Shown here: positions 1-31,156 of the stretch, one piece after another
How positions within the stretch are numbered: the first letter of the stretch is position 1
Layout: the number at the start of each line of letters is the position of its first letter
Source: Gammaproteobacteria bacterium
Lineage (GTDB): Bacteria; Pseudomonadota; Gammaproteobacteria; Steroidobacterales; Steroidobacteraceae
Reading direction: 5' to 3'
NCBI GenBank assembly: GCA_020029535.1
Contig: JAIBJM010000016.1
Location: 1-39,979 of the forward strand
Length of the DNA stretch: 39,979 nucleotides
The notes under the pieces: generated by a model
What the model saw: the letters and a program-made list of their open reading frames with translations, nothing else
Databases searched by the model: none
Told to the model about the DNA's origin: nothing
Position numbers and translations under genes: made by a program

Positions 1-889
1 CCAGGGTGTAGGCGTCGAAGTCGGTTTCCGCAGGCTCGTCGAAAGCGGTGGTGACCGACCGGCCGCCGTCGGTGGTGAACGGATATCCGCCCGTGTCGGT
101 GCGCGAGAACCAGCCCGACAGGCCAACCGAAAAGTTCTCGATGGGCCTGGCCGCGATCTTCACGCGCACATTGGTCTTCTGGGCATCGTTGACGTCTTCC
201 TTGCCCAGGGCCGGCTTGTCGATCCAGCCGCCCAGATCCTGGTAACCCACCACTATGCGCGCAGCCAGCTTGTCGTCTATCAGCGGGATATTGACTGCCG
301 CATCGCCTGTATAACTTTCGCTGCCCCGTTCGGTGCCAGCGATCGAGCCACGGGCCTTGAATTCGAAGTTCTTCAGATCCGGATTCCTGGTCAGCACGCG
401 CACCACACCGTTGAGGGCGCTGGCGCCATACAGGGTACCCTGCGGACCGCGCAGCACTTCCACGCGGTCGAGGTCGTAAGGATTGGAGTCCGGTACGAAA
501 GCGGTCTGAGCACGTCCGAACGGCGTGGTGTCGAGGTAGTACGCCGTCGTGCCACCACCCACCGTCGCAGCGGAAACGCCGCGGATCGCGATCGACGGAT
601 TGCCGCCACCCACGCGCCCGGCATTGTTGGTGACCGGCGCGAACACGCTCGGAACACGATTCAGCGCATCCGCGACTCCACGGTCGGAGGAGCCGTCCAG
701 CTTGTCACCGCTCAGTACGGTGATGGAAATGGGCACTTCCTGGAGACGCTCTGCGCGCTTCTGCGCGGTGACCACGACTTCTTCAAGAGTGACTGCGGAA
801 GCATCCGGAGCCTGCGCAAAAACAGTCGGTGAAAAAGCAGCCATCGACAGGCACGTGATGACAGTACTTGTACTGGTAATCGGGCGCAT
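1..889 (-). CDS. TonB-dependent receptor, N-terminal part (cut by window edge)
   Basis: The reading frame is open from an ATG at 889 to base 1, so only the first 296 residues are present. It starts with a signal peptide (MRPITSTSTVITCLSMAAFS..., cleavage probably after VFAQA), then a TonB-box-like stretch (LEEVVVTAQKR). A plug domain follows, with the conserved patterns IAIRGVS, YYLDTTPFG and DRVEVLRGPQGTLYGA, and then the first beta strands of the barrel. Family role: outer-membrane, TonB/ExbBD-energised uptake of a scarce or bulky ligand. The strong purine-rich Shine-Dalgarno (AGGGGGAGGGG) directly precedes the ATG. It lies downstream of a secreted tannase-family hydrolase and an AraC regulator on the same strand, so uptake of an aromatic ester or its product is a reasonable inference. 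The ligand cannot be read from the sequence, and the barrel lies outside the window. Confidence 0.93.
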   Translation of the reverse strand, partial: MRPITSTSTVITCLSMAAFSPTVFAQAPDASAVTLEEVVVTAQKRAERLQEVPISITVLSGDKLDGSSDRGVADALNRVPSVFAPVTNNAGRVGGGNPSIAIRGVSAATVGGGTTAYYLDTTPFGRAQTAFVPDSNPYDLDRVEVLRGPQGTLYGASALNGVVRVLTRNPDLKNFEFKARGSIAGTERGSESYTGDAAVNIPLIDDKLAARIVVGYQDLGGWIDKPALGKEDVNDAQKTNVRVKIAARPIENFSVGLSGWFSRTDTGGYPFTTDGGRSVTTAFDEPAETDFDAYTL

Positions 890-1065: not shown

Positions 1066-2865
1066 TCAAGAGCAGGTGTAGCTCGCTGCGGAATTGATGT
1101 CGCCCGAGCCCGAGTACGTGGCCTGCAGCGGATAGACGCAGATCGGCCGACTCTTTGCCATCGGGAATTGAGGCGTCACGAGACTGGCAATGTCGATCCG
1201 TCCTGGAGCCACGCCTTTCTCAACCCAATCTCGTAACGCCTGGAAGAGCACCTTTTCGCTGTACGCCGGAGGATTCGCGTCCGGATTGGCTGTGCCATTG
1301 ACGGTCATATGCCCCTGACCGGGGACAAGGTAGGTCCGATAGAACTTCTGCAGTGCCTCCATGCCACCCGTCTTCACTGCCACCTGGTTGTAGTAGTTCA
1401 CGAAGCCCTGATACGGAATCAGGTTATCCGACAGGCCATACACCGAGATGATCTTCGTGCCATGGTCCCTGACAGCTCTCAGGTCCGGATTGTCGGTGTT
1501 GATGTGGGCGAATACATCCTGCATCTTCAGTCCCCGGTCGTATGCATCCGAAAACCGGGCGTACGAGATCGTCTTCCACAGATCCTTGCCGTTGCTGTTC
1601 GCATTCCTGAACGTCGGCATCGCGAGCGCAGGATCTTGCAGGACAAGCGCCAGCATGTCGGCAGCTATGGACTGCGGCGTGGGACCGGCGACGAGGGACA
1701 GATCCGCGCCGCGCGGATATCCCCACCATCGTTGAACGCCAGCCAGCGTCGCCCCGGCACCGTTGTCGACGGCAGGGGAAGGCGCAGAGCCGTCAGTTGT
1801 CGGGCCGTACCAGATCTTGTTGATCGCCCGGGCTTGTGCGGTGGTGACGCAGGCTGGCGTCGAGTTCGTGCCTCCGCTGGAAGCGCAGAGAACTGCAGAG
1901 TCCTTGATGGGATCATAGGTACAGGCTGCCGGATCGAGGATGTACCCGAGGTGCTGGCCACCGACCACATCGCAGCTGTTGATCGCCGCCCGGGAAACCG
2001 CTGTCAGCTGCGCCGCCGTCAGCGGGCCTCCCAGATCCTGCTGGGTCACGATCGACGGATACATCGCCGCGGTCAGCAGGCGGGTGAAATTTACTGCCGC
2101 CCGCTGCGCGATGATGCCGTCGAAATCAGTCGGATAATCCTGGGCATGCTTCAGGCCCTGGCGGCCGCCCGTCGAAGATCCGCGCCAATACGAATATCTG
2201 GCGGGCTGTCCGTAGAAGGCCATGGTCAGCGCCTTGGTCTTCACGATCATCTCGTGCGTGCCCAGCGCGGAATACTGCTGCCAGCCGAGCTTGTTGAGGG
2301 TACCGTCCGGATTCATCAGGAAGTCACCCTTCCCTTGCGGATGACCCGTGTCTGTCGTCGCGGAGACCGAACCGTCGCTGCCCGCCACCTCCCACGGACT
2401 TCCCTGCGAGCTGGAGCCGAGCCCGGTCAAGGTGGCCTGCGGTCCGCCTGCCCAGCCGGAGTTGCCCAGCACTTCAATGCGCTTGTTCCAGTTCTCCGGG
2501 GACGGCAGCCATACGTCGATGCCGATGCCAGGTGTGGTTGAAGGAGCCTCGGCAGGTCCGCTGTTGCCGGGACCCACCAGCAACTTCACCAGACAGATAT
2601 CGTTCGGGGCAACGGGCGTCGAAGCCCTGGCGTCCCCGGACAGCAGCAGCGGATCGCCCTTCCTGAACTGCTTGACGAGCTGAACCCTGGTCGTTGCGCC
2701 TCGCGACAGCGGCTTCGGATTGAAGGCGGCCTTCATGCTGTCATCGCAGGTCAGCGGTGCTTTTGATCGCAACAGGGATGCGCCGCTGGCGTCGCTCCAC
2801 AGGATAACTGCCGGAAGGCTCGCGGCCATCACGGCCAACACGAGTCGATCGATGAACAACTTCAC
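1066..2865 (-). CDS. Secreted tannase/feruloyl-esterase-family hydrolase, non-canonical
   Basis: 599 residues starting at GTG (2865), with a good Shine-Dalgarno (AAGGGGG) about 5 nt upstream. Residues 1-28 look like a signal peptide, so the enzyme is periplasmic or exported. The nucleophile elbow GSSTGGRQG puts the catalytic serine at S231; GLSDNLIP gives D480 and PGQGHM gives H519, a full triad of the tannase/feruloyl esterase (PF07519) family. Members hydrolyse esters of aromatic acids (tannin, feruloyl esters, and MHET in MHETase). Two family hallmarks are missing. The cysteines next to the serine and the histidine (CS-D-HC motif) are S230 and M520. The lid calcium loop between C298 and C315 has Gly and Leu where two aspartates are expected. 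The gene sits 10 bp after the AraC regulator, on the same strand. Substrate unknown; the family assignment is firm. Confidence 0.9.
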   Translation of the reverse strand: MKLFIDRLVLAVMAASLPAVILWSDASGASLLRSKAPLTCDDSMKAAFNPKPLSRGATTRVQLVKQFRKGDPLLLSGDARASTPVAPNDICLVKLLVGPGNSGPAEAPSTTPGIGIDVWLPSPENWNKRIEVLGNSGWAGGPQATLTGLGSSSQGSPWEVAGSDGSVSATTDTGHPQGKGDFLMNPDGTLNKLGWQQYSALGTHEMIVKTKALTMAFYGQPARYSYWRGSSTGGRQGLKHAQDYPTDFDGIIAQRAAVNFTRLLTAAMYPSIVTQQDLGGPLTAAQLTAVSRAAINSCDVVGGQHLGYILDPAACTYDPIKDSAVLCASSGGTNSTPACVTTAQARAINKIWYGPTTDGSAPSPAVDNGAGATLAGVQRWWGYPRGADLSLVAGPTPQSIAADMLALVLQDPALAMPTFRNANSNGKDLWKTISYARFSDAYDRGLKMQDVFAHINTDNPDLRAVRDHGTKIISVYGLSDNLIPYQGFVNYYNQVAVKTGGMEALQKFYRTYLVPGQGHMTVNGTANPDANPPAYSEKVLFQALRDWVEKGVAPGRIDIASLVTPQFPMAKSRPICVYPLQATYSGSGDINSAASYTCS

Positions 2866-2875
2866 AGGTACCCCC

Positions 2876-4066
2876 TTATCTTTTTCTGATCATGGCGGAT
2901 CGGCGACCACGACCTTGCGCAGGCGCGTCCGCTTTACCTGTGCCTGCTTCCTTGAGGCCGGACTCCAGCCGCCTGCGATAGTGTGTGGGCGCAGCGCCGG
3001 TCCAGTGCAGAAACGCCCGGAAAAATGCCGATGGCTCGGCGTAACCGAGATCCGAGGCGATCTGCGCAATCGATTGTCGGGTCTTCTCCAGCCGCGCCAG
3101 TGCCAGATCGCGGCGCACGGCGTCCTTGATCGCGTGAAAGCTTGAGTCCTCTTCGTGTAATCGCCGGTGCAGCGTGCGGGGCGACAGAAGCAGATCGCGC
3201 GCAACTTCCTCGAGCGACACCGGCCGCGGCAGCGCCGCAGCGACCAGATCGCGCACGCGCCGCACCGTCTCGCGATCGCGCCGATAGAGCATGGTGATTC
3301 TGCCCGGCGCACCTTCGAGGAAGATTTCCAGCGCCTGCTCGTCGCGGCGGACCGGCAGATCGAGCAGGTTCGGATTGAGGGATGCCACGAGACTGGGCCT
3401 GTCGAAACGCGCGCGCTCGGTATAGATGAGCCCGTAGTCGGCTGCATGTGCCGGCCTCGGATAAGGAAAACTCACGCTGTCGAGCGCCAACCCCCGGCCG
3501 ACGAGCCAGCAGGCCAGCGCATGCAGCAGACGCAGCAACCATTCGAAGGCGAAGACACGGCGCGGATCGTCGTCGCGGGTTCCCAGCGGGCCGATCTGCG
3601 CAATCTCGATCTGTGCCGCGGTGCGCGTGCGCATCACGCTGACGCGCAGCTCCGGCAGCACCAGCCGCAGAAAACGGGCGGCGCGGGACAGTGCCTCGGC
3701 AAGCGTGCGGCTGCTGACGACGCTGCGGCACAGGAATTCGAACGAGCCAGCGCGCATCGGCGCTGCGAACAGTGCAAAAGCTTCGTCATCGAGCGCAACG
3801 ACGATGGCGTTGTACAGCGCCGCGTAGCTGGCGAGCGGCACGCGTGCGCGCGGGTCCGAAAGCACGTCCTCGTCAACGCCGCTGGCTTCGAGCATGGGCC
3901 GCGCATCGATGCCGCGCGCCCTGAGCCCCGAAAGCATGCCGGTGACGAAACCTACGGCGACGGTGCCGTGCGTACGCGCGGGCTGGCGCAAATTTGATAT
4001 CGGAGTGGACAAAATCACGGTCTTCAGGTTGGCGGATCTTGCACGATCAGCGGCGAGAGCGGACAT
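2876..4066 (-). CDS. AraC-family transcriptional regulator
   Basis: 396 residues from ATG 4066, with a GAGG Shine-Dalgarno 6 nt upstream. The N-terminal two thirds (about residues 35-230) match the arabinose-binding-like ligand domain (PF12625) found in OruR-type AraC regulators. The C-terminus (about 280-370) holds the double helix-turn-helix: [20 protein letters not shown] is the first HTH and [20 protein letters not shown] the second, with the typical [12 protein letters not shown] signature. It is divergent from the IcmF operon (122 bp between start codons) and only 10 bp upstream of the tannase gene on the same strand. It could therefore control the esterase/receptor genes, the mutase operon, or both. 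The inducer is unknown. Confidence 0.9.
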
Positions 4067-4188
4067 GGCCGACCTCGTCCCGCCAACCTAGTATGCGGAA
4101 GAATTCCAGTAAAACAACTGACAGGGATGCCGCCATCGCAGCCCGCGACGGCGCGGCGTCTTTTACAGTGGCGGCGAACGGGACCGCC

Positions 4189-7100
4189 ATGACTGATCTT
4201 TCGGTGAACCACACGCGCCCGCCCTACAAGACTGCACACAAGATCCGCCTGGTCACGGCCGCGGCGTTGTTCGACGGTCATGATGCATCGATCAACATCA
4301 TGCGCCGCATCCTGCAGGCGAGCGGCGCCGAGGTCATCCACCTTGGCCACAATCGTTCGGTGGCGGAGGTGGTCAATGCAGCGCTGCAGGAAGATGTCCA
4401 GGCGGTGGCGGTTACCTCCTACCAGGGTGGCCACGTCGAATACTTCAGGTACATGATCGATCTGCTGCGCGAGAACGACGGCGCGGACATCAGGATCTTC
4501 GGCGGCGGCGGTGGCGTTATTGTGCCGGCCGAGATCCGCGAGTTGCAGGCGTGTGGCGTTACACGCATCTACTCGCCCGAGGACGGTGCGACGCTGGGGC
4601 CGCAGGGCATGATCAACGACCTGCTTGAACGTGCCGATTACAACCTCAGTGCGTTCGCACCGCACGAAAACACTGCAATCGGCGCACTGACCTCGGGCAA
4701 CCGGCGCGCACTGGCACGCGTGATCACGGCGCTCGAAAACCACACATACGGCGAGGCGCTGCGACAGCAGCTGATCCGGATGGCGCCGGCAATCCGCACT
4801 CCGGTGCTGGGCATCACCGGCACCGGCGGCGCGGGCAAGAGTTCACTGACCGACGAACTGGTACTACGCCTGCGTCTCGACCAGCAGGACCGGCTGCGTG
4901 TGGCCATCATCTCGATCGATCCCTCGCGCAAACGCACCGGCGGCGCACTGCTGGGCGACCGCATCCGCATGAATGCCATCGAGTCTCCGAACATATTCAT
5001 GCGTTCGATGGCCACGCGCGACACCGGCAGCGAGATCTCCGCGGCCCTGCCCGAAGTAATCGCCGCCTGCAAGATCTCGGGCTTCGACCTGATCATCGTC
5101 GAGACCTCCGGCATCGGTCAGGGCGATGCAGCCATCGCCCCCTTCGTCGACTGTTCGCTCTACGTGATGACACCGGAATTCGGTGCGACCAGTCAGCTTG
5201 AAAAGATCGACATGCTGGACTTCGCCGATTTCGTGGCAATCAACAAGTTCGACCGCAAGGGCGCTCAGGACGCGTTGCGCGATGTGCGCAAGCAGTACCA
5301 GCGCAATCGCGAGCAGTTCAATCGTCGGCCCGAAGACATGCCGGTATTCGGCACGCAGGCTTCGCGCTTCAACGACGACGGCGTGACAGCGCTCTATCAG
5401 GCTCTCCTCGGGCGGCTGCGCACGCACGGGCTGGCCGCCAGCGACGGGAAGCTGCCGGGCGTGACGGTCATGACTTCTTCATTCGGACGCGCGATCGTGC
5501 CGGTCGAGCGAGCACGGTACCTGGCCGAGATCGCCGAGACCGTGCGAGGGTATCACCGGCACGTCGTCGAGCAGGTACGGATCGCGCGCGAGCGGCAGGC
5601 GTTGCAGATTGCGGCAGGACTGCTGGAATCCGCCGGCCGCGGGGACGATCCGGGCGCCGCATTGCGCGATCTGCAGGCACGCAAGGATGCGGAGCTCGCC
5701 CACGATGCGAAGAGGCTTCTCGACACCTGGCCCGGAATCGCCGGGCAGTATCGTGGCGATGAGCACGCAATCACCGTCCGCGGCAGGGAGTTGCGCACGT
5801 GGCTCACGCGCGTGTCGCTCTCCGGCACGAAAATTCCAAAAGTCGCGCTACCCGGGTTCGACGATGCCGGCGAACGGCTGCGCTTCCTGATGAAGGAAAA
5901 CCTGCCGGGCTACTTTCCATTCACAGCCGGCGTGTTTCCGTTCAAACGTGAAGGCGAGGATCCGACCCGCATGTTCGCCGGCGAGGGTGATGCGTTCCGC
6001 ACCAACCGGCGCTTCAAACGGGTATCGGAAGGCATGCCGACGCACCGGCTGTCGACCGCCTTCGATTCGGTGACGCTCTATGGCTGCGATCCCGATCCGC
6101 GACCCGATATCTACGGCAAGATCGGCAATGCAGGGGTATCGATCGCCACTCTCGACGACATGAAGGTGCTTTACGACGGCTTCGACCTGTGCGCACCAAC
6201 GACCTCGGTGTCGATGACCATCAATGGTCCGGCGCCGATCATCCTGGCGTTCTTCTTCAACACTGCGATCGACCAGCAGGTGCAGAAGTTCCAGGCCGGG
6301 AATGGCCGCCCTCCTGGCGACGCTGAACTGGCATCGCTCAAAGCACGGACGCTTTCCACCGTGCGCGGCACTGTGCAGGCCGACATACTCAAGGAAGACC
6401 AGGGCCAGAACACCTGCATTTTCTCGACCGAGTTCGCGCTGAAGATGATGGGCGACATCCAGGAGTACTTTGTCGCCAACCAGGTCCAGAACTTCTACTC
6501 GGTGTCGATCTCGGGTTACCACATTGCCGAGGCCGGCGCGAATCCGCTCTCGCAGCTTGCCTTCACGTTGGCCAACGGCTTTACATTCGTCGAGGCTTAT
6601 CTGGCACGCGGCATGCGCATCGACGACTTCGCACCCAATCTGTCATTTTTCTTCAGCAACGGCATGGATCCCGAGTACAGCGTGCTCGGACGTGTTGCGC
6701 GGCGCATCTGGGCCGTGGCGATGCGCGACAAGTACGGCGCGAACGAACGCTCGCAAAAACTCAAGTATCACGTGCAAACCTCGGGCCGTTCGCTGCATGC
6801 GCAGGAGATGGCATTCAACGACATCCGTACCACGCTGCAGGCGCTCATCGCGGTCTATGACAACTGCAATTCCCTGCACACCAACGCCTATGACGAGGCC
6901 GTCACCACACCAACCGAAGAGTCGGTGCGCCGGGCGATGGCGATCCAGCTGATCATCAACCGCGAATGGGGGCTGGCCATGAACGAGAACCCGAACCAGG
7001 GCAGCTTCATCATCGACGAGCTCACCGATCTGGTCGAAGAAGCGGTACTGAAGGAATTCGAAGCACTGAGCAGCCGCGGCGGTGTTCTCGGTGCGATGGA

Positions 7101-7464
7101 GACCGGCTATCAGCGCGGCAGAATCCAGGAAGAAAGCCTCTACTATGAGCACAGAAAACATGACGGCTCGCTGCCCATCATCGGTGTCAACGCCTTCCGC
7201 AATCCGCACGGCGATGCCGTGGTACAGGAGATCGTTCTGGCGCGCTCGAGCGAGAAGGAAAAGCAGAGCCAGCTGCAGCGCCTCACCGTCTTTCACACCT
7301 GCCATCGTGACACTGCGCCGCAGTGGCTCGAACTATTGCGCCGGACAGTGATTGAGGACGGCAACGTATTCGGAGTGCTGATGGATGCCGTGCGTCATTG
7401 TTCGCTCGGCCAGATCAGCGACGCGCTCTATCAGGTCGGCGGGAAGTACCGCCGCAACATGTGA
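4189..7464 (+). CDS. icmF: Fused isobutyryl-CoA mutase IcmF (adenosylcobalamin-dependent)
   Basis: 1091 residues from ATG 4189, where homologous proteins begin (MTDLS). A longer frame from 4093 is possible but would add an unusual leader. Order: B12-binding domain with the D-x-H-x-x-S motif (D29, axial ligand H31); MeaI-type P-loop GTPase chaperone ([10 protein letters not shown]217); linker; then the mutase barrel. The enzyme interconverts isobutyryl-CoA and n-butyryl-CoA by radical chemistry, and the GTPase part gates cofactor loading and repair. F596 (RMFAGEG) and Q740 (GQNTCIF) occupy the positions that are Tyr and Arg in methylmalonyl-CoA mutase, which supports a butyryl/isobutyryl-type substrate. 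First gene of a five-gene plus-strand operon; the thiolase starts 12 bp downstream. Length and architecture are those of the canonical IcmF family. Confidence 0.96.
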
Positions 7465-9547: not shown

Positions 9548-11362
9548 ATGGCTGACTACGTTCCGCCGCTGCCCGATATGCAGTTCGTGCTGCGCGAGCT
9601 CGTCGAGCTGACGTCCTTAGCGCAGCTGCCGGGCTGCGAAGAGGCAACACCCGCTCTGGTCGACGCGATTCTCGACGAAGCCGGCAAGTTTGCCCGCGGC
9701 GTGCTCGCGCCGCTCAATTGCAGCGGCGATCGGCAGGGCGCTCGCTGGGACAGCGGCGCCGTGCGTACGGCCGATGGCTGGCGTGAAGCCTATGGACAAT
9801 TCGTCGCTGCTGGCTGGAATGCGCTTTCGTGTCCGATGGAGCACGGCGGTCAGGGCCTGCCACGCCTGATATCGACACTGGTCGAGGAAATGTGGAACGG
9901 CGCGAACGTGGCCTTCGCGTTGTGTCCGATGCTCACGCGCGGGGCAATCGAAGCGATCGACCTGCATGGCAGCGCCACGCTCAAACAGATCTATCTGCCC
10001 AGGCTCGTAAGCGGTGAGTGGACCGGCACGATGAACCTCACTGAACCGCAGGCGGGCAGCGACCTTGCGGCGATTCGCGCGCGTGCCGAGCCGCGGGCCG
10101 ATGGCAGCTATCGGATCTCCGGGCAGAAGACCTTCATCACCTACGGCGAGCACGATCTGGCCGACAACATCGTCCATCTCGTGCTCGCGCGCACGCCCGA
10201 CGCGCCGGAAGGCGTCAAGGGAATCTCGTTATTCGTCGTGCCAAAATTCCTGGTCAATGCCGACGGCTCGATCGGGTCGCGTAACGACGTGCGCTGCATC
10301 TCGATCGAGCGCAAGCTCGGCATCCATGCGAGTCCGACCTGCGTCATGGCGTTCGGAGATGGCGGGGGTGCCGTGGGCTACCTCATCGGGGAAGAAAACC
10401 AGGGCCTCGCCTACATGTTCATCATGATGAATACGGCGCGCTTCAGCATCGGGCTCGAGGGCCTGGGTCTGGCAGAGGGTGCGTATCAGCAAGCGCTCGC
10501 CTATGCGCGCCAGCGCGTGCAAGGCACCGCAGCGGGTACCAGGAGCGGTGCGAAGGTCGCGATCCTCCGGCATCCCGACATCCGCCGCATGCTGCTACTG
10601 ATGAAATCACAGAGCGAGGCGATGCGTGCGCTCGCCTGTGTGGTCGCCGCGTCGATGGACGTCGCGCAGCGCCATCCAGAGCCCGAGACGCGCAGGCGCC
10701 ACCAGGCCTTCGTCGATCTGATGATTCCGGTCGTCAAGGGCTGGAACACCGAGACTGCCAACGAGATCGCCTCGCTCGGAGTACAGATCCATGGCGGCAT
10801 GGGTTACATCGAAGAGGCCGGTGCGGCGCAGTTCCTCCGCGACGCCCGGATTACGACGATCTACGAGGGCACCACCGGCATCCAGGCGATCGACCTGGTC
10901 GGGCGCAAGGTCGCGCGCGACCAAGGCCGCACGATTCGCGCGGTACTCGACGAAATTCGTGCGATCGAGCGACAGCTGCGCGGGCATGACGAGCCCGCGC
11001 TTGGCGCGATCGCGCACGCGCTGGGCGCAGGCGTCAGCGCGCTCGCGCAGGCGGTCGACTTCATCGTCACTACGTTCGGCACCGACGTACGCGCCGCGCT
11101 TGCAGGCGCGGTGCCGTTTCTCAAGCTCTTCGGCACGGTGGCAGGTGGCTGGCAGATGGCGCGTGCCGCGCTCGCCGCACAACGCCGGATCGATCAAGGC
11201 GACAGCGACACGGCCTTTCTGCGTGCGAAGATCGCGAGTGCACACTTCTATGCCGATCATCTGCTCACCCAGGCACCTGGACTCGCGCGCATCGTATGTG
11301 CTGGCGCGCCTGCCGTGCTTCAATTCACTGATGATCAGTTCATCGGGGCAGCCAGACAATGA
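9548..11362 (+). CDS. Long acyl-CoA dehydrogenase, DmdC-like
   Basis: 604 residues, clearly longer than ordinary acyl-CoA dehydrogenases (about 380). It has N-terminal, middle (MNLTEPQAGSDLAAIRARA) and C-terminal dehydrogenase domains plus the extra helical C-terminal extension (PF12806 type) typical of DmdC/3-methylmercaptopropionyl-CoA dehydrogenase relatives. The likely catalytic base is E440 in IYEGTTGIQA. It is an FAD enzyme making the alpha,beta-double bond of an acyl-CoA and passing electrons to ETF. In an icmF/thiolase/dehydrogenase operon, a butyryl- or branched-acyl-CoA substrate is more likely than a sulfur compound; this is inference. Its last codons overlap the next gene at ATGATG, which suggests translational coupling. 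Confidence 0.92.
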   Translation: MADYVPPLPDMQFVLRELVELTSLAQLPGCEEATPALVDAILDEAGKFARGVLAPLNCSGDRQGARWDSGAVRTADGWREAYGQFVAAGWNALSCPMEHGGQGLPRLISTLVEEMWNGANVAFALCPMLTRGAIEAIDLHGSATLKQIYLPRLVSGEWTGTMNLTEPQAGSDLAAIRARAEPRADGSYRISGQKTFITYGEHDLADNIVHLVLARTPDAPEGVKGISLFVVPKFLVNADGSIGSRNDVRCISIERKLGIHASPTCVMAFGDGGGAVGYLIGEENQGLAYMFIMMNTARFSIGLEGLGLAEGAYQQALAYARQRVQGTAAGTRSGAKVAILRHPDIRRMLLLMKSQSEAMRALACVVAASMDVAQRHPEPETRRRHQAFVDLMIPVVKGWNTETANEIASLGVQIHGGMGYIEEAGAAQFLRDARITTIYEGTTGIQAIDLVGRKVARDQGRTIRAVLDEIRAIERQLRGHDEPALGAIAHALGAGVSALAQAVDFIVTTFGTDVRAALAGAVPFLKLFGTVAGGWQMARAALAAQRRIDQGDSDTAFLRAKIASAHFYADHLLTQAPGLARIVCAGAPAVLQFTDDQFIGAARQ

Positions 11363-12174
11363 TGTCTGATGCCACCGACTTCTATCCCCAACGCATCGTC
11401 TGTCTGACCGAGGAGCCGACCGAGGTGCTTTACGCACTCGGCGAATCGCATCGCATCGTCGGCATTTCAGGCTTTACCGTGCGCCCGGCCCGCGCGCGCA
11501 AGGAAAAGCCCAGGGTTTCTGCCTTCACCAGCGCGCGCATCGACGAGATCCTCAAGCTCAAGCCGGATCTGACGATCGGTTTTTCCGACCTTCAGGCTGA
11601 CATCGCGCAGGAACTGGTCCGTCGCGGCGTGGAGGTCTGGATCAGCAATCACCGCTCGGTGACCGGGATTCTCGGCTACGTGTGCCGGTTGGGCGCACTG
11701 GTCGGTGCGGCGGGCAAGGCCGAACGCTACGCGCAGGAACTCGAGACGCACCTGGCTCGCGTGCGTGAGGCGGCCGCGTGCTTGCCGCGGCGCCCGCGTG
11801 TCTATTTCGAGGAATGGGACGAGCCGCAGATCAGCGGGATTCGCTGGGTCTCGGAACTCATCGGCATCGCCGGCGGCGAAGATATCTTTGCCGAGCGCGC
11901 GAAGAGCGCACTTGCGCGCGGCCGCATCATCGCCGATGCACGCGAAGTCATCGACCACGCACCCGACCTCATCATCGGCTCGTGGTGCGGCAAGAAGTTC
12001 CGTCCCGAGCGGGTTGCGGCGCGGCCAGGCTGGCAGACGATTCCGGCGGTGCGCGACGGCGAGCTGCACGAGGTCAAGTCGCCGCTCATCCTGCAGCCCG
12101 GGCCGGCGGCGCTGACCGACGGGCTCGATGCCCTGCACGCGATCATTGCGCGCTGGGCGCAGCGCTGGACTTAA
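11359..12174 (+). CDS. Leaderless BtuF-like cobalamin-binding protein
   Basis: 271 residues belonging to the periplasmic-binding-protein fold of the vitamin B12/iron-siderophore class (PF01497, BtuF-like). The N-terminal pattern RIVCLTEEPTEVLYALGE continues into GISGFTVRPARARKEKP, then LKPDLTIGFSDLQADIAQEL. There is no signal peptide or lipobox: the protein starts MMSDATDFYPQRIV. It is therefore predicted to stay in the cytoplasm, unlike true BtuF. It overlaps the acyl-CoA dehydrogenase by 4 nt (ATGATG; the second ATG at 11362 is also possible) and closes an operon headed by the B12-dependent mutase. A role in intracellular cobalamin handling or sensing is an attractive inference but untested. 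It meets the MFS gene tail-to-tail with a 4-nt overlap. Confidence 0.85.
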   Translation: MMSDATDFYPQRIVCLTEEPTEVLYALGESHRIVGISGFTVRPARARKEKPRVSAFTSARIDEILKLKPDLTIGFSDLQADIAQELVRRGVEVWISNHRSVTGILGYVCRLGALVGAAGKAERYAQELETHLARVREAAACLPRRPRVYFEEWDEPQISGIRWVSELIGIAGGEDIFAERAKSALARGRIIADAREVIDHAPDLIIGSWCGKKFRPERVAARPGWQTIPAVRDGELHEVKSPLILQPGPAALTDGLDALHAIIARWAQRWT

Positions 12175-13526
12175 AGAGCCGCCTGCGGCGCAAGCCGGCC
12201 GTCTTCGCGTCGGCGTGCAAACGCCAGAACCGAGGCAGCCACCGCAGCTACAAGAATCGCGCCCCCCATGAAGTAGAACACCTGCAAGTTCCGCCAGCCC
12301 GCGGCCAGCATGGTCCCGACCAGCAGCGCATTGCCTATCTGCGCCAGCCGCGCCATCGACATGGCACTGCCCACGCCCATCGACCTGAGAACGGTGGGAT
12401 AGACCGATGCGGCCAAAGTGAGTGCTCCCGCGCTCGCGCCACCCAAACACAGGGAGCTGACGAAGGACGCTGCACTGGCCCAGCCGAGGCCCAGTCCCGG
12501 AATTCCGATTGCCATGAACAGCGGCGCGCCGACCAGATAGGCAATGGCCATGACTCGTCCGGCGCCGAAGCGGTCGAACAGGCGGCCGAAGCTGGCGGTG
12601 CCGAACACGCTTCCCAGGTTCGACATGGCGCCCACGAAGGCCGCTTGCGAGAGAGTGAGCTGCGCCGGACCCGACAGCATCGACGGCACCCACAGCGGCA
12701 GGAACAGCAGCGCGCTGAAGGTGATCATGAACAGGACCCACAGCAGCGCGGTCGTGACCGCCCGCCCGCCCTGCAACAGCGCCAGGAACGAACCGCGATG
12801 CGCCGTCGGTTCGGCGAAGGTGAATTGCGTAGCGTCCGCCGCGGCCGGCGCCAGCCACCGCACCACGGCGCGAATCCGCGCCGTATCGGCATTACTGGCT
12901 GCCAGATACCGCAGGGATTCGGGCAGATAGAGCGCGCAGACGATACCGATCAGCAGAGGTACGCCGCCGCCGAAATAGAAGATGCTCTGCCATCCGAATT
13001 CTTTCGCGAGGATCGGGTTGATCAGGCTTCCGACGAAGCCCCCTAGTGGGAAGGCTGCCCAGATGACCGAGACAGCCGCCCCGCGGATGCGCGCCGGAGC
13101 GTATTCAGCCGTGAGCGCCACAAAGCACGGGGTCGCCGCGCCGAGGCCCAGGCCGGCGACCAGCCGTGCCGCCATGAAGGTTGGAATCGAGGTCGCGAGC
13201 GCTGTGACGATCGTACCGAGCGCCATCAGCAGCACAGCTCCGAGCAGCGTCGGTTTTCGACCGATCCGGTCGCCGATGGCGCCCGAGACCACCGCGCCAA
13301 TCATCGCCCCCAATTGACCGGCGGAGAACACGGGCCCCAGGGACCCCGGAGGGAGATGGAAGGCCTGGCTGATCAAGGGACCAGCCACCCCGATCGACTG
13401 GGTGTCGAGGCCGTCGAAGAAGGCGACAGCGGCGCAGCAGGCCATCGCCTTGATCTGGAATGCGGTGAGCCGCCCATCGTCGATCAGCGCGCCAAGGTCG
13501 ATCGTCCCGTCCTGCTTCTCTGTCAC
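12171..13526 (-). CDS. MFS transporter, aromatic acid:H+ symporter (AAHS) type
   Basis: 451 residues with about twelve hydrophobic segments in two halves, so an inner-membrane protein. TM1 has the acid-bearing pattern FFDGLDTQSIG typical of the PcaK/MhpT-like AAHS family, and loop 2-3 carries the MFS signature GDRIGRKPTLL. The start is GTG 13526, overlapping the stop of the FAH gene as GTGA. It is the last gene of the four-gene catabolic operon and probably imports the aromatic or related acid degraded by the upstream enzymes. Its stop overlaps the convergent cobalamin-binding gene by 4 nt. The exact substrate is not determinable. Confidence 0.9.
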   Translation of the reverse strand: MTEKQDGTIDLGALIDDGRLTAFQIKAMACCAAVAFFDGLDTQSIGVAGPLISQAFHLPPGSLGPVFSAGQLGAMIGAVVSGAIGDRIGRKPTLLGAVLLMALGTIVTALATSIPTFMAARLVAGLGLGAATPCFVALTAEYAPARIRGAAVSVIWAAFPLGGFVGSLINPILAKEFGWQSIFYFGGGVPLLIGIVCALYLPESLRYLAASNADTARIRAVVRWLAPAAADATQFTFAEPTAHRGSFLALLQGGRAVTTALLWVLFMITFSALLFLPLWVPSMLSGPAQLTLSQAAFVGAMSNLGSVFGTASFGRLFDRFGAGRVMAIAYLVGAPLFMAIGIPGLGLGWASAASFVSSLCLGGASAGALTLAASVYPTVLRSMGVGSAMSMARLAQIGNALLVGTMLAAGWRNLQVFYFMGGAILVAAVAASVLAFARRREDGRLAPQAAL

Positions 13527-14362
13527 TGGACTGACTCAGCCGCAATGGTGTTGACGAGACGGCCCACCGCGCCGATCTCCACCTCGACAGTGTCCCCCGG
13601 TTTCATCCACAGCGGCGGGGTGCGCTTGGAGCCAACTCCGCCCGGCGTTCCGGTGGCAATCACGTCACCCGGCGAGAGCGAAGTGAAGCTCGATATGTAG
13701 GCAATGATCTTCGGTATCGGAAAAATCATGTCGCCGATCGGCTGATCCTGGACCACCGCCCCGTTCAGCCGGGTGATCACATGCACGTCTGTCAGGTCGC
13801 CGGCCTCCTCCGGCGTGACCAGCCATGGGCCCAACCCGCCGGTGGCTGGAAAATTCTTTCCCGGAATGAACTGGCTGGTGTGCCATTGCCAGTCGCGGAT
13901 GGAGGCGTCGTTGAAGCACGCGTAGCCGGCCACGTGCGCCATCGCCTCGGACTCCGGGATCGCCCGGCCGCCTAGACCGATCACGACGGCAAGCTCGCCC
14001 TCGTAATCGAGGCTGTCGGAAATGCGCGGGCGGATGATCGGCTGGTGGTGCGCAACCAGGGTGTCGGCGAAGCGCGTGAAGATCGACGGATGGTCGACCT
14101 TGGCGCGCTGGGTCTCCTGGCGGTGACTTTCATAGTTGTGGCCGACGCACAGGATCTTTCCAGGGTTCGGCACCACAGGCAGCAGGACGATGCTTTCGAG
14201 CGCGCAGGTCCGCCCTTCGCCTTTGCCCAAGGCCGCCAGCCCGCCGGCGGCAATGGCTGACTTCAGGTCGGGCGCAGAGCCGGAGAGATCGACCACGTGG
14301 TCGCCCTCCACCCGTCCGAAGTGCGCAGCGCCGTCGGGCGCGCGGAAGCTGACGTACTTCAC
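13523..14362 (-). CDS. Fumarylacetoacetate hydrolase (FAH)-family enzyme
   Basis: 279 residues from a GTG at 14362 (VKYVSFRAPDG..., with AGGAAT upstream). A longer open frame reaches 14641, but its first part is a shadow of the upstream gene. The core is a classic FAH domain: ILCVGHNYESHRQE, then the metal-binding DYEGELAVVIG, then CFNDASIRDWQWHTSQF and FIPGKNFPATGGLGPW, ending ATGTPGGVGSKRTPP. Family members hydrolyse or hydrate and decarboxylate ring-fission products in aromatic catabolism, using Mg2+ or Mn2+. It overlaps the dioxygenase stop (GTGA) and the MFS start by 4 nt each. Together with the VOC dioxygenase this implies ring cleavage followed by hydrolysis of the fission product. The specific compound is unknown. 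Confidence 0.92.
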   Translation of the reverse strand: MKYVSFRAPDGAAHFGRVEGDHVVDLSGSAPDLKSAIAAGGLAALGKGEGRTCALESIVLLPVVPNPGKILCVGHNYESHRQETQRAKVDHPSIFTRFADTLVAHHQPIIRPRISDSLDYEGELAVVIGLGGRAIPESEAMAHVAGYACFNDASIRDWQWHTSQFIPGKNFPATGGLGPWLVTPEEAGDLTDVHVITRLNGAVVQDQPIGDMIFPIPKIIAYISSFTSLSPGDVIATGTPGGVGSKRTPPLWMKPGDTVEVEIGAVGRLVNTIAAESVQ

Positions 14363-15273
14363 CGGATTCCTGCCGAACCTGCGCCGACGCGCAAGGACTC
14401 GGGCGTCCATTCGCGCCGGAAACAGAAATTGCGTTCCGCCTCTTCCAGGGCGCCGATATCCTTTGTCGACAGTCCCCACTGATCGATGCGCCCCGGCGGC
14501 CAGGTCCAGTCTTCCTGCGCACCGGCCTTGTGGTCGTCCGCCACCTTTTCCACCGCGGTGGAGAATTCGACCACCGCGCCGAACGGGGCGACGAAATAGG
14601 CGAAGATGTTGGCGCCCGGTCCGTGCCGACCGGGGCCCCATGCCGGCGTCAGACCGCGGTCGCGCAGACGGCCGATTCCGCGCATCACCGCATCCATGTC
14701 CTCCATCTCGAAAGCGATGTGGTTCAGTGAGGCATAGCCGGCGCGCGCGAAGGCAGTCGAATGGTGGGAATCATTGCAGCGCACGAACACCATGCCCTTG
14801 GTGCGGTCGGAGACGCGAAATCCCAGTGATTGCTCGGCCACATTGGCGGTTGCCTCCGCGTCCCTGGAGTTGAGTACGACGTGAGTCAGCTTGACCGGCA
14901 GATCACGGCCGGCGATCGGCTCCACATCCTCCGTCTCGGTCAGGAATCGGAACAGCTCGCCCTCGGGCAATTCGACCACGATCCCGCGCCCGCCGCCGGG
15001 GTCTGCCGCGATCGTCTCGATTACCGGCAACCCGCTCGCCTGCACGCGTTCGGTCAGATGCTCCAGCTCTTCGCGCGTGCCGGTGAAGGTGATCGAGCGC
15101 ACGAAACGGCTGTCCGCCTCGTGCAGAGCCAGAAGGTACGGTAGCCGGCTCGATCCGCGCAGATAGTGCGCCCCGCCCCGGGTGCCGCCCGGAGCCATGC
15201 CCCAGATCTCTGTCATGAAGCGGGCTGCCTCGCCCGCCTCCGGAAGCGCCAGCTCCACACTACGCAGCATCAT
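14359..15273 (-). CDS. VOC-superfamily (type I extradiol-like) dioxygenase
   Basis: 304 residues built from two vicinal-oxygen-chelate modules. The N-terminal module (about 1-120) lacks obvious metal ligands. The C-terminal module has the expected Fe/Mn triad H131 (KLTHVVLNS), H185 (LNHIAFEM) and E236 (AVVEFST), as in two-domain extradiol dioxygenases such as BphC. It probably cleaves a dihydroxylated aromatic ring next to the hydroxyls. ATG 15273 overlaps the stop of the upstream GlcG-like gene by 4 nt. The divergent sequence means that ring cleavage is inferred from fold, ligands and neighbours (FAH hydrolase, aromatic-acid transporter); a glyoxalase-like role is less likely. Confidence 0.87.
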   Translation of the reverse strand: MMLRSVELALPEAGEAARFMTEIWGMAPGGTRGGAHYLRGSSRLPYLLALHEADSRFVRSITFTGTREELEHLTERVQASGLPVIETIAADPGGGRGIVVELPEGELFRFLTETEDVEPIAGRDLPVKLTHVVLNSRDAEATANVAEQSLGFRVSDRTKGMVFVRCNDSHHSTAFARAGYASLNHIAFEMEDMDAVMRGIGRLRDRGLTPAWGPGRHGPGANIFAYFVAPFGAVVEFSTAVEKVADDHKAGAQEDWTWPPGRIDQWGLSTKDIGALEEAERNFCFRREWTPESLRVGAGSAGIR

Positions 15274-29609: not shown

Positions 29610-30251
29610 TCAGGCGCGATCGAGCAGTGATGAGAGAAATGAAAACTCAAGGCAACACACTGCATCAATCTGTCGCCGGACGTGATCGTGGGTACTGGGT
29701 TCGTGAGTCGCTAAGCAAAGGTAGTAGTTCCTACCCTCATGCTGAGCGAACACGATCCATTCGCCGGTTAGCGCCTTCGCAGTCGCAAGACGTTCGAGGT
29801 TGCCGCCGATCACGTCGTTGACTAGCGCAGGGATATCCTCCGCAGTCAGGTATCGTGTTTCGCCGGCCGCTTCAGTTTCCCGAATTCTTTGCTCGAATAG
29901 CGGCATGCCGTGTCGATTGAGTCCCTTCTGTACGTTCATCGCAGTGGCGCGTAATCCGTCTTCCAAGTAGTGCTTGTGCCACAGGCCCTTCAGTGGCTGA
30001 TGCTTGTTCTGTCTTGGCGGCTTAAGCTGGCTAGGCGGCCCTATTCCCTCCAACGCTCGTATTTCATGCACGACCTTGGCCGGGTTTAGCACGCCCGCCT
30101 TGACGCTGCCGAACAGACCAAGGACCAGCAACAAGCTGTAGCGACCTGGCGCCGCTTGTTCCAGCCCGATCTGGTTGGCGAATTCTTGTAGTTCGGCGGT
30201 GATGTCCTTGCCATCCTCTGTTCTCGCGCTAAATTTCTGAACCATAGGCAT
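29610..30251 (-). CDS. Unrecognised island protein coupled to abiEii
   Basis: 213 residues from ATG 30251, which shares its A with the abiEii stop (TGATG); ATG 30245 (MVQKFSARTEDG) is an alternative. A longer frame to 30416 is a shadow of abiEii. Visible features are a small hydrophobic helix (YSLLLVLGLFGSV), a basic proline/lysine segment (QLKPPRQNKHQPLKGLWHKH), and a C-terminal part with GEWIVFAQHEGRNYYLCLAT followed by a Cys pair (AVCCLEF). The GEWIVFA...NYYLCLATHE part looks like a compact beta domain of a conserved family. No catalytic motif identified. Its position suggests a partner of the toxin or of the HEPN-like protein that follows. Confidence 0.65.
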   Translation of the reverse strand: MPMVQKFSARTEDGKDITAELQEFANQIGLEQAAPGRYSLLLVLGLFGSVKAGVLNPAKVVHEIRALEGIGPPSQLKPPRQNKHQPLKGLWHKHYLEDGLRATAMNVQKGLNRHGMPLFEQRIRETEAAGETRYLTAEDIPALVNDVIGGNLERLATAKALTGEWIVFAQHEGRNYYLCLATHEPSTHDHVRRQIDAVCCLEFSFLSSLLDRA

Positions 30252-31156
30252 CAGATGCGCGTCCATCCCGCGCGTGGCTTCCAGCGCCAATCCCCTTCCG
30301 CCTCCTCGATCAGCGGCAGCAGAAATCGCTCCAGATCGGCGACCACTGTCGCCAGTTGCTCTGGCGCTGCCGCCATCCGCTCGCGGGTCAGGAAGGTCCG
30401 CCACTGGCCGCCCCAAGTTTCGATATATGCCTCACTCAATCCGGTCGGCTTCTCCTGCGGTAGCTCCGTCTCGCGCCGCGCAAAGGTCTGATGGACGGCC
30501 TCGGCCAGGGGTGTCCTCTCCAGCTCGAACGTCTCGGCGATCAACCACAGGTCGTAATAGTCCTTCAACCGGCTGTTGGTGATGCCGCGGACAGCAAGAG
30601 CATGGAACTTCTCGGCGACCACCGTCTCGATCGGATAAGCCCGCACGCGCGGTGCCGGCGCGTCGAGCAGCGCCGGATAGTCGATCTCGATGGGACCAGG
30701 GGTAATCGCATCGCCAAAGCCCACATCGATCTGGATCGGGATGCGGGCGCCGGCGATCGTGGCTTGGGTGCGTACTCGCACACCGCCATACTCAAGGTCC
30801 TCGCGGATCGGCGCGACTTCGAGTCCATCGACATCGAAGGCCACGCCATCGTCGTCGACGGGCTGGGTCAGGATCGCGCGAAAGGTATCGCCAATCGCCT
30901 CGGGAGTGTTATCGCCATAGCTGAGCAGGTCCAGGTCGCGCGTCGGCCGAAACGGCGCTTCAACCCACGTCACGAACAGCATCGCGCCCTTGAGGATAAA
31001 TCGGTTGCAATGCTCCGAGCGGCTCAACCGATACAACAGTCTTTCCAGCGCATAGCGCGTCAGCAGGATCTGGAAATCGGTGCGCTCGTCGCGCGATCGC
31101 TGCAGCAACCGGGCACGCACCGAGGCACCGACGTTCTTCAGGGGTTCACGCGCCAT
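30251..31156 (-). CDS. abiEii: AbiEii-family nucleotidyltransferase toxin
   Basis: 301 residues. It carries the four conserved motifs of the AbiEii/AbiGii family (PF08843): KGAMLFVTW...TRDLD74LD76, D144 in IQIDVGFGD, K183 in AEKFHALAVR, and K198-D199...D202 in RLKDYYDLW. Family members are nucleotidyltransferases that stop growth when unopposed, by modifying tRNA in characterised relatives, and form the toxin of type IV-type AbiE abortive-infection systems. ATG 31156 overlaps the antitoxin gene by 11 nt. All motif residues are intact, so the toxin is expected to be active. It is followed by an unusual three-gene extension of the operon. Confidence 0.92.
   Translation of the reverse strand: MAREPLKNVGASVRARLLQRSRDERTDFQILLTRYALERLLYRLSRSEHCNRFILKGAMLFVTWVEAPFRPTRDLDLLSYGDNTPEAIGDTFRAILTQPVDDDGVAFDVDGLEVAPIREDLEYGGVRVRTQATIAGARIPIQIDVGFGDAITPGPIEIDYPALLDAPAPRVRAYPIETVVAEKFHALAVRGITNSRLKDYYDLWLIAETFELERTPLAEAVHQTFARRETELPQEKPTGLSEAYIETWGGQWRTFLTRERMAAAPEQLATVVADLERFLLPLIEEAEGDWRWKPRAGWTRI

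Follow-up and report, generated by a model that had tools for sequence, protein, structure and literature searches.

Members of the Tannase family, among them the plastic-monomer enzyme MHETase, are described as having an active-site disulfide and a lid calcium site. According to excerpts of the papers cited, the disulfide, the CS-D-HC bridge, is typical of the family with a conservation above 80% (PMC6461665), an alignment of 6,671 sequences shows high conservation of the ten cysteines of MHETase (PMC7568301), and the feruloyl esterases carry a calcium site in the lid (PMC6461665, PMC7568301). For AoFaeB, a table in an excerpted review lists the bridge as crucial to activity (PMC12347902). 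In the excerpts of the MHETase study, full-length mutants devoid of the bridge gave no expression or inclusion bodies, and weak activity was measured for a lidless MHETase carrying the PETase pair (PMC7568301).

The window, that is, the whole stretch of 39,979 nucleotides analyzed here, encodes a member of this family, the esterase P0001 (Table 1). The gene lies at the coordinates given in the first-pass annotation, on the minus strand, which that annotation did not name. It has a GTG start codon, and a strong ribosome-binding sequence, AAGGGGG, lies five bases 5' of it. The product matches the PF07519 profile (Tannase, ESTHER Block X) in residues 110-598 (E=3.4e-74; 250.9 bits, with the cut-off at 29.8), covering profile positions 16-489 of 490, and has no match among the NCBIfam models. 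No other Tannase-family match was found in the source assembly, which is 95% complete. With the esterase as a query, the best PDB sequence matches are fungal feruloyl esterases, followed by MHETase; a PDB search with the family profile ranked MHETase first, and the two proteins can be aligned through this profile over nearly its whole length.

Table 1. Features of the esterase gene and of its two neighbors in the window.
Feature	Position	Strand	Basis
Tannase/feruloyl-esterase-family serine esterase, 599 aa	1066..2865	-	PF07519; PDB matches FaeB, FaeC, MHETase; AlphaFold2 model
Signal-peptide-like N-terminus, about residues 1-29	2779..2865	-	basic residues and hydrophobic core; sequence and hydropathy; low pLDDT in residues 1-31
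Nucleophile elbow RGSSTGGR, residues 228-235, with Ser231; Ser230 at the place of the CS-D-HC Cys	2161..2184	-	
Catalytic Asp480	1426..1428	-	column invariant in the 49-row alignment
Catalytic His519 and, at the place of the second CS-D-HC Cys, Met520	1306..1311	-	
Lid loop C298 to C315, D299 retained, calcium aspartates replaced by G302 and L306	1921..1974	-	
AraC-type regulator (Arabinose_bd and HTH_18), ending 10 nt before the esterase start	2876..4066	-	
TonB-dependent receptor, N-terminal part, 176 nt downstream of the esterase	1..889	-	Plug, PF07715 E=1.5e-19

The AlphaFold2 model, computed from the window protein and 48 relatives, has a mean pLDDT of 92.7 and a pTM of 0.91, with residues 1-31 under 50. 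Its best Foldseek match is 6g21 (E 5e-34). VIA-align gave a Z score of 36.8 with FaeC 8bhh (470 residues, rmsd 2.6), 36.5 with FaeB 3wmt, and 31.4 with MHETase 6qg9, the first match outside the family having a Z of 19.8. The AoFaeB structure was reportedly described by Suzuki et al. in 2014. An alpha/beta hydrolase core and a large lid are present in the model, which aligns with FaeB, FaeC, and MHETase over residues 35-599, and the predicted core and lid are thus those of the FaeB/MHETase family fold. By its profile match, triad, and predicted core and lid, the window esterase is a complete Tannase-family member.

The catalytic residues Ser231, Asp480, and His519 are present in the expected order, and all three columns are invariant in an alignment of 49 rows. 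Positions 230 and 520 correspond to the cysteines before Ser and after His in the Aspergillus and Fusarium feruloyl esterases, as seen in the alignment, and in MHETase, as seen through the family profile. Here S230 and M520 replace both of them, and the CS-D-HC bridge is absent; the first-pass annotation was thus right to report a paired replacement beside an intact triad. The protein contains only eight cysteines, at positions 40, 91, 298, 315, 327, 339, 576, and 598, which presumably form the other four MHETase disulfides; their columns hold Cys in 96 to 116 of 116 aligned sequences. Since all eight sit in these other conserved family columns, no bridge cysteine has moved nearby, and the shift to adjacent positions that the annotation had considered as an objection is ruled out by the alignment.

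In the lid loop, the retained C298 and C315 with their spacing, and the replacement of two calcium aspartates by G302 and L306, were likewise correctly described at first. The calcium positions of MHETase, listed as 304, 307, 309, 311, and 313 in a table of the excerpted PMC10557434, correspond to D299, G302, Q304, L306, and Y308 in the window esterase, so that two of the three aspartate ligands of the FaeB/MHETase group are gone. For position 309 of MHETase, the text of that excerpt has Lys, and the MHETase sequence as aligned here has Leu.

The frequency of the cysteine loss was assessed in two samples. The first, selected by similarity to the window, contains the loci fetched with the window protein that have frames of at least 380 aa, 115 distinct sequences making 116 rows together with the window; its plasmid part covers 7 of the 164 records with a match. 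Four incomplete or frame-broken sequences (L119, L024, L019, and L045) were excluded from the trees. Both cysteines are present in 63 and neither in 49 of the 112 complete rows. The pair is unmixed in all of these rows, and therefore its replacement is more than a chance event. The second, less biased sample resulted from a Pfam search in 249 genomes of the phylum, with at most six candidates scored per genome (a number reached in two of them). A Tannase match at E<=1e-20 occurs in 25 of the 249 genomes, including the window's own, yielding at least 41 proteins besides the window one. Both cysteines are found in 30 of these 41 and neither in 11, again with no mixed cases; 13 of the 41 are shared with the first sample, L131 being the same gene as L080. 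One of the 11 pair-less proteins, L144, is also devoid of the catalytic Ser.

Since 11 of 41 members across 249 genomes have no bridge, its absence does not exclude family membership. The novelty is modest, because the published conservation of the disulfide is only >80%. Judging by the sequences compared, bridge absence is a minority state already known, and the loss of the cysteine pair is neither rare nor a clade marker. In L144 (G564:C1:79500-81800) the catalytic Ser is replaced by Ala (GQANGG) and His is followed by Gln, and by its sequence it is possibly an inactive family member; a similar protein from another genome, L142, has GQSHGG at the elbow.

In a tree of the 112 rows, constructed with the trait columns removed, the window belongs to a clade of 35 rows with an SH-aLRT support of 100, and the same clade is recovered at 100/99 in a careful 41-row tree with six outgroup rows. 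Asp306 is present in none of its 35 rows, Asp302 in one, Asp299 in 29, and the cysteine pair in seven. The 77 rows outside the clade comprise 56 with the pair and 21 without it. The latter form one separate branch (support 99 in the 112-row tree) and have both aspartates in all 21 cases. The pair-bearing rows have both aspartates in 51 of the 56 cases, and five rows (L096, L062, L063, L068, and L081) are without Asp302 and/or Asp306. In the second sample, five of the 30 Cys-keeping proteins deviate from the C...D...D spacing, some of them by a longer loop. At least four changes on the tree are required for each trait, and all four combinations occur among the compared sequences: rows with both features, rows with just one of them (the calcium aspartates or the disulfide cysteines), and rows with neither.

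The fixation of the aspartate loss in a clade with strong support makes it more than chance, and by sequence comparison the loss marks the 35-row branch, being fixed there and also sporadic elsewhere. The window therefore does belong to a divergent branch, as the first-pass annotation proposed, but the marker of this branch is the loss of the aspartates (35 of 35 rows) rather than of the cysteines, since seven rows keep the pair. The five exceptions among the 56 outside Cys-keeping rows and the five among 30 in the second sample rule out a calcium-loop loss unique to the branch. A coupled loss of bridge and calcium is ruled out by the 21 pair-less rows that have the aspartates and by the seven clade rows with the reverse state.

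The residues at positions 230/520 of the 28 pair-less clade rows are varied (F/G, H/S, G/G, F/S, S/M, V/M, A/M, and others), and S/M is found in only one row besides the window (L046). The suggestion that the S/M replacement defines a clade is thus not borne out by the alignment and the tree, and S/M was discarded as a marker. There is no correlation between the residue volumes at 230 and 520 that would indicate compensation, either in the clade (Spearman -0.17, p 0.40, 28 rows) or in the other non-Cys rows (Spearman -0.10, p 0.67, 21 rows). Twenty rows around the window are joined with support 94 in the quick 112-row tree and are not joined in the careful one. The AU tests reject none of the three groupings considered, namely these 20 rows (p 0.44), the 28 non-Cys rows (p 0.19), and the seven Cys rows (p 0.38).

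The relatives of the window esterase are scattered. Those with 36-57% identity come from Pigmentiphaga, Piscinibacter, Acidovorax, Variovorax, Caballeronia, Burkholderia, Pseudoduganella, Polaromonas (L045, incomplete), Sphaerotilus, Acinetobacter, Frankia, an actinomycete MAG, and a Thermoleophilia MAG, and relatives are found on replicons filed as plasmids in Variovorax, Agrobacterium, Burkholderia, Novosphingobium, Paracoccus, and Rhizobium. At a threshold of 1e-60, the only match among 369 genomes from the window's class is in its own genome; at the same threshold, matches occur in 10 of 200 genomes of the family to which the Pigmentiphaga genome belongs, including two known before, and in one of 300 from another order. 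The best match in 14 genomes of the same genus is L003, which lies outside the clade and has 37% identity (E 4.1e-60); the identity of short segments goes up to 42%. Four pattern matches in viral contigs included no relatives. The patchy spread and the plasmid copies suggest, at the level of sequence, horizontal transfer of the esterase gene. Among clade members from other genomes, the L045 frame has no C-terminal part, and the L115 and L119 matches contain one stop each.

In the window, the AraC-type regulator, the esterase, and the TonB-dependent receptor follow each other in this order on one strand, the receptor gene being cut off by the window start, which is also the contig start. The PDB matches of the receptor, mostly siderophore, colicin, heme, and B12 receptors, fall in the plug region. 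A similar receptor, with 31% identity, was found in two of 24 clade loci (L032 and L050), some of the loci having short flanks. Besides the esterase, the search for conserved neighbors across the clade loci yielded only four clusters, each common to three or four loci, and some of the automatically called genes are antisense. The Pfam assignments of 30 chosen neighbors from 16 loci are mixed, comprising regulators, hydrolases other than the esterase, transporters, oxidoreductases, and a few genes of the housekeeping or mobile-element type; five of the 30 have no family. As the clade neighborhoods vary and the receptor occurs in only two of 24 loci, the context says little on the substrate. Further along the window, genes for an MFS protein, an FAA hydrolase, and a glyoxalase-superfamily protein stand in a row at 12171-15273 (minus strand); the best match of the MFS protein is the aromatic acid/H+ symporter family, below the cut-off of the model. 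This is a possible aromatic catabolic operon, and these three genes point weakly to aromatic esters.

Several other genes of the window were identified. The fused isobutyryl-CoA mutase/GTPase IcmF (NF045497, 1909.6 bits) is encoded at 3994-7464 (plus strand). The genes that come next encode thiolase, 3-hydroxyacyl-CoA dehydrogenase, and acyl-CoA dehydrogenase, and the whole set makes up a branched or short-chain acyl-CoA pathway. Near the gene of this B12-dependent mutase, a gene for a periplasmic binding protein (Peripla_BP_2) at 11359-12174 (plus strand) has a weak match to the B12-binding protein BtuF, below the cut-off. An AbiEii-type nucleotidyltransferase (PF08843, E=5.5e-47) at 30251-31156 (minus strand) adjoins a dip of the G+C content to 0.54 at 29-30 kb.

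We propose, with a probability of about 0.75, that the window gene encodes a secreted, lidded Tannase-family serine esterase of ordinary mechanism, acting on an aromatic-acid ester, with a calcium-free lid loop and with packing in place of the bridge. The enzyme would be exported to the periplasm or the outer surface, and Ser231, His519, and Asp480 would act through an acyl-enzyme on the ester of a small aromatic acid, the choice of an aromatic ester being a guess. The lid loop would be closed by a C298-C315 disulfide alone, the calcium site having presumably gone across the branch, and the Cys-Cys clamp of the catalytic Ser and His loops may be replaced by non-Cys packing in most branch members, here by Ser and Met. 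The esterase is probably co-expressed with the AraC-type regulator and the TonB-dependent receptor. A working secreted esterase is favored because of the good start signal, the signal-peptide-like N-terminus, and the regulator-esterase-receptor order.

The absence of two structural features from one protein could also mean a degenerate or non-catalytic relative that sheds them under relaxed selection, and family members such as L144, with Ala for the catalytic Ser, as well as the broken or incomplete clade members L045, L115, and L119, are in line with this reading. We consider this improbable for the window, whose esterase retains the triad together with the other eight family cysteines; the three catalytic columns show no variation in 49 rows, the clade extends over many genera with mostly open frames, and an unmixed state of the cysteine pair is not favored under relaxed loss. 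Binding of the lid calcium through altered ligands, such as D299, backbone carbonyls, and water, is unlikely as well, if somewhat less so: D299 is kept here and in 29 of 35 clade rows, and of the five ligand positions in MHETase, 309 is occupied by Leu and 313 by Ile, residues that can contribute through the backbone only, but two of three carboxylates have become Gly and Leu in the window, and the loop is shortened in several clade rows (L042, L052, L053, L126, L047, L048, L056, and L057).

The bridge-less site also resembles that of PETase, which in the excerpted MHETase study has Trp159 and Ser238 at the place of the MHETase bridge (PMC7568301), and an aromatic residue at 230 with a small one at 520 is common in the clade (F/G in eight, F/S in three, and Y/S in one of 28 rows). 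A polyester or MHET-type hydrolase is nevertheless very improbable, given that the S/M of the window is no aromatic/small pair and that the full lid is kept, a lid that the same excerpts describe as crucial for MHETase and absent from PETase; moreover, full-length MHETase with the PETase pair was never usable there, the weakly active form being the lidless one (PMC7568301). We retain as the likeliest reading of the window gene a secreted, calcium-free, lidded esterase.

For the branch as a whole, we tentatively suggest, at somewhat below even odds, that its members are active, lidded esterases free of calcium, forming a natural series with its own substrate class. Their common ancestor would have lost the calcium site, and one to three events would account for the loss, and perhaps the regain, of the bridge. 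If so, the bridge that is called crucial in AoFaeB would be dispensable in nature without loss of activity. Because of that description and of the unusable full-length MHETase pair mutants, both the 35-row and the 21-row branches are natural exceptions to the bridge requirement that are worth testing. The comparison of L037, which has the cysteine pair and neither Asp302 nor Asp306, with L032 or the window esterase, which have neither feature, offers a contrast for the role of each feature in folding, stability, and activity. We considered the chlorogenate esterase HcaG as a possible relative, and the literature search for it gave nothing useful. In the literature covered, outside which most subscription papers lie, no paper was found that deals with a branch of the family lacking the calcium or the bridge, and no characterized member of the 35-row clade is named; the excerpts of PMC8958541, PMC11902034, and PMC5967792 do not treat such a branch.

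Among the known systems, the ESTHER Block H tannases of L. plantarum and Fusobacterium are serine alpha/beta hydrolases like the window esterase. According to an excerpt of PMC6461665, their lid is markedly different and the L. plantarum enzyme has no bridge, and the Fusobacterium tannase 6yq4 is a far weaker structural match to the window model (Z 18.0). The I. sakaiensis MHETase (6qg9, 6qz3) shares the family and the fold (Z about 31), but in the excerpts of PMC7568301 and PMC6461665 it has the C224-C529 disulfide and calcium, whereas the window esterase has neither cysteine and one of the three aspartates; Thr232 stands here at the place of the MHETase Glu226. The closest solved folds are those of the AoFaeB and FoFaeC feruloyl esterases (3wmt, 6g21, 8bhh, 9hun), which are 24-28% identical and have the core-plus-lid architecture, the triad, the STGGRQG elbow, and the lid-loop cysteines in common with the window protein, but differ from it by the cysteines beside Ser and His and by the lid calcium site described for feruloyl esterases. 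The 21-row branch (for example L061, L097, L076, and L110) resembles the window in the paired cysteine loss with an intact triad and differs in keeping both Asp302 and Asp306 throughout. Seen against these relatives, the window esterase does not represent a novel enzyme type; it is a variant inside an established family and is useful as a natural experiment.
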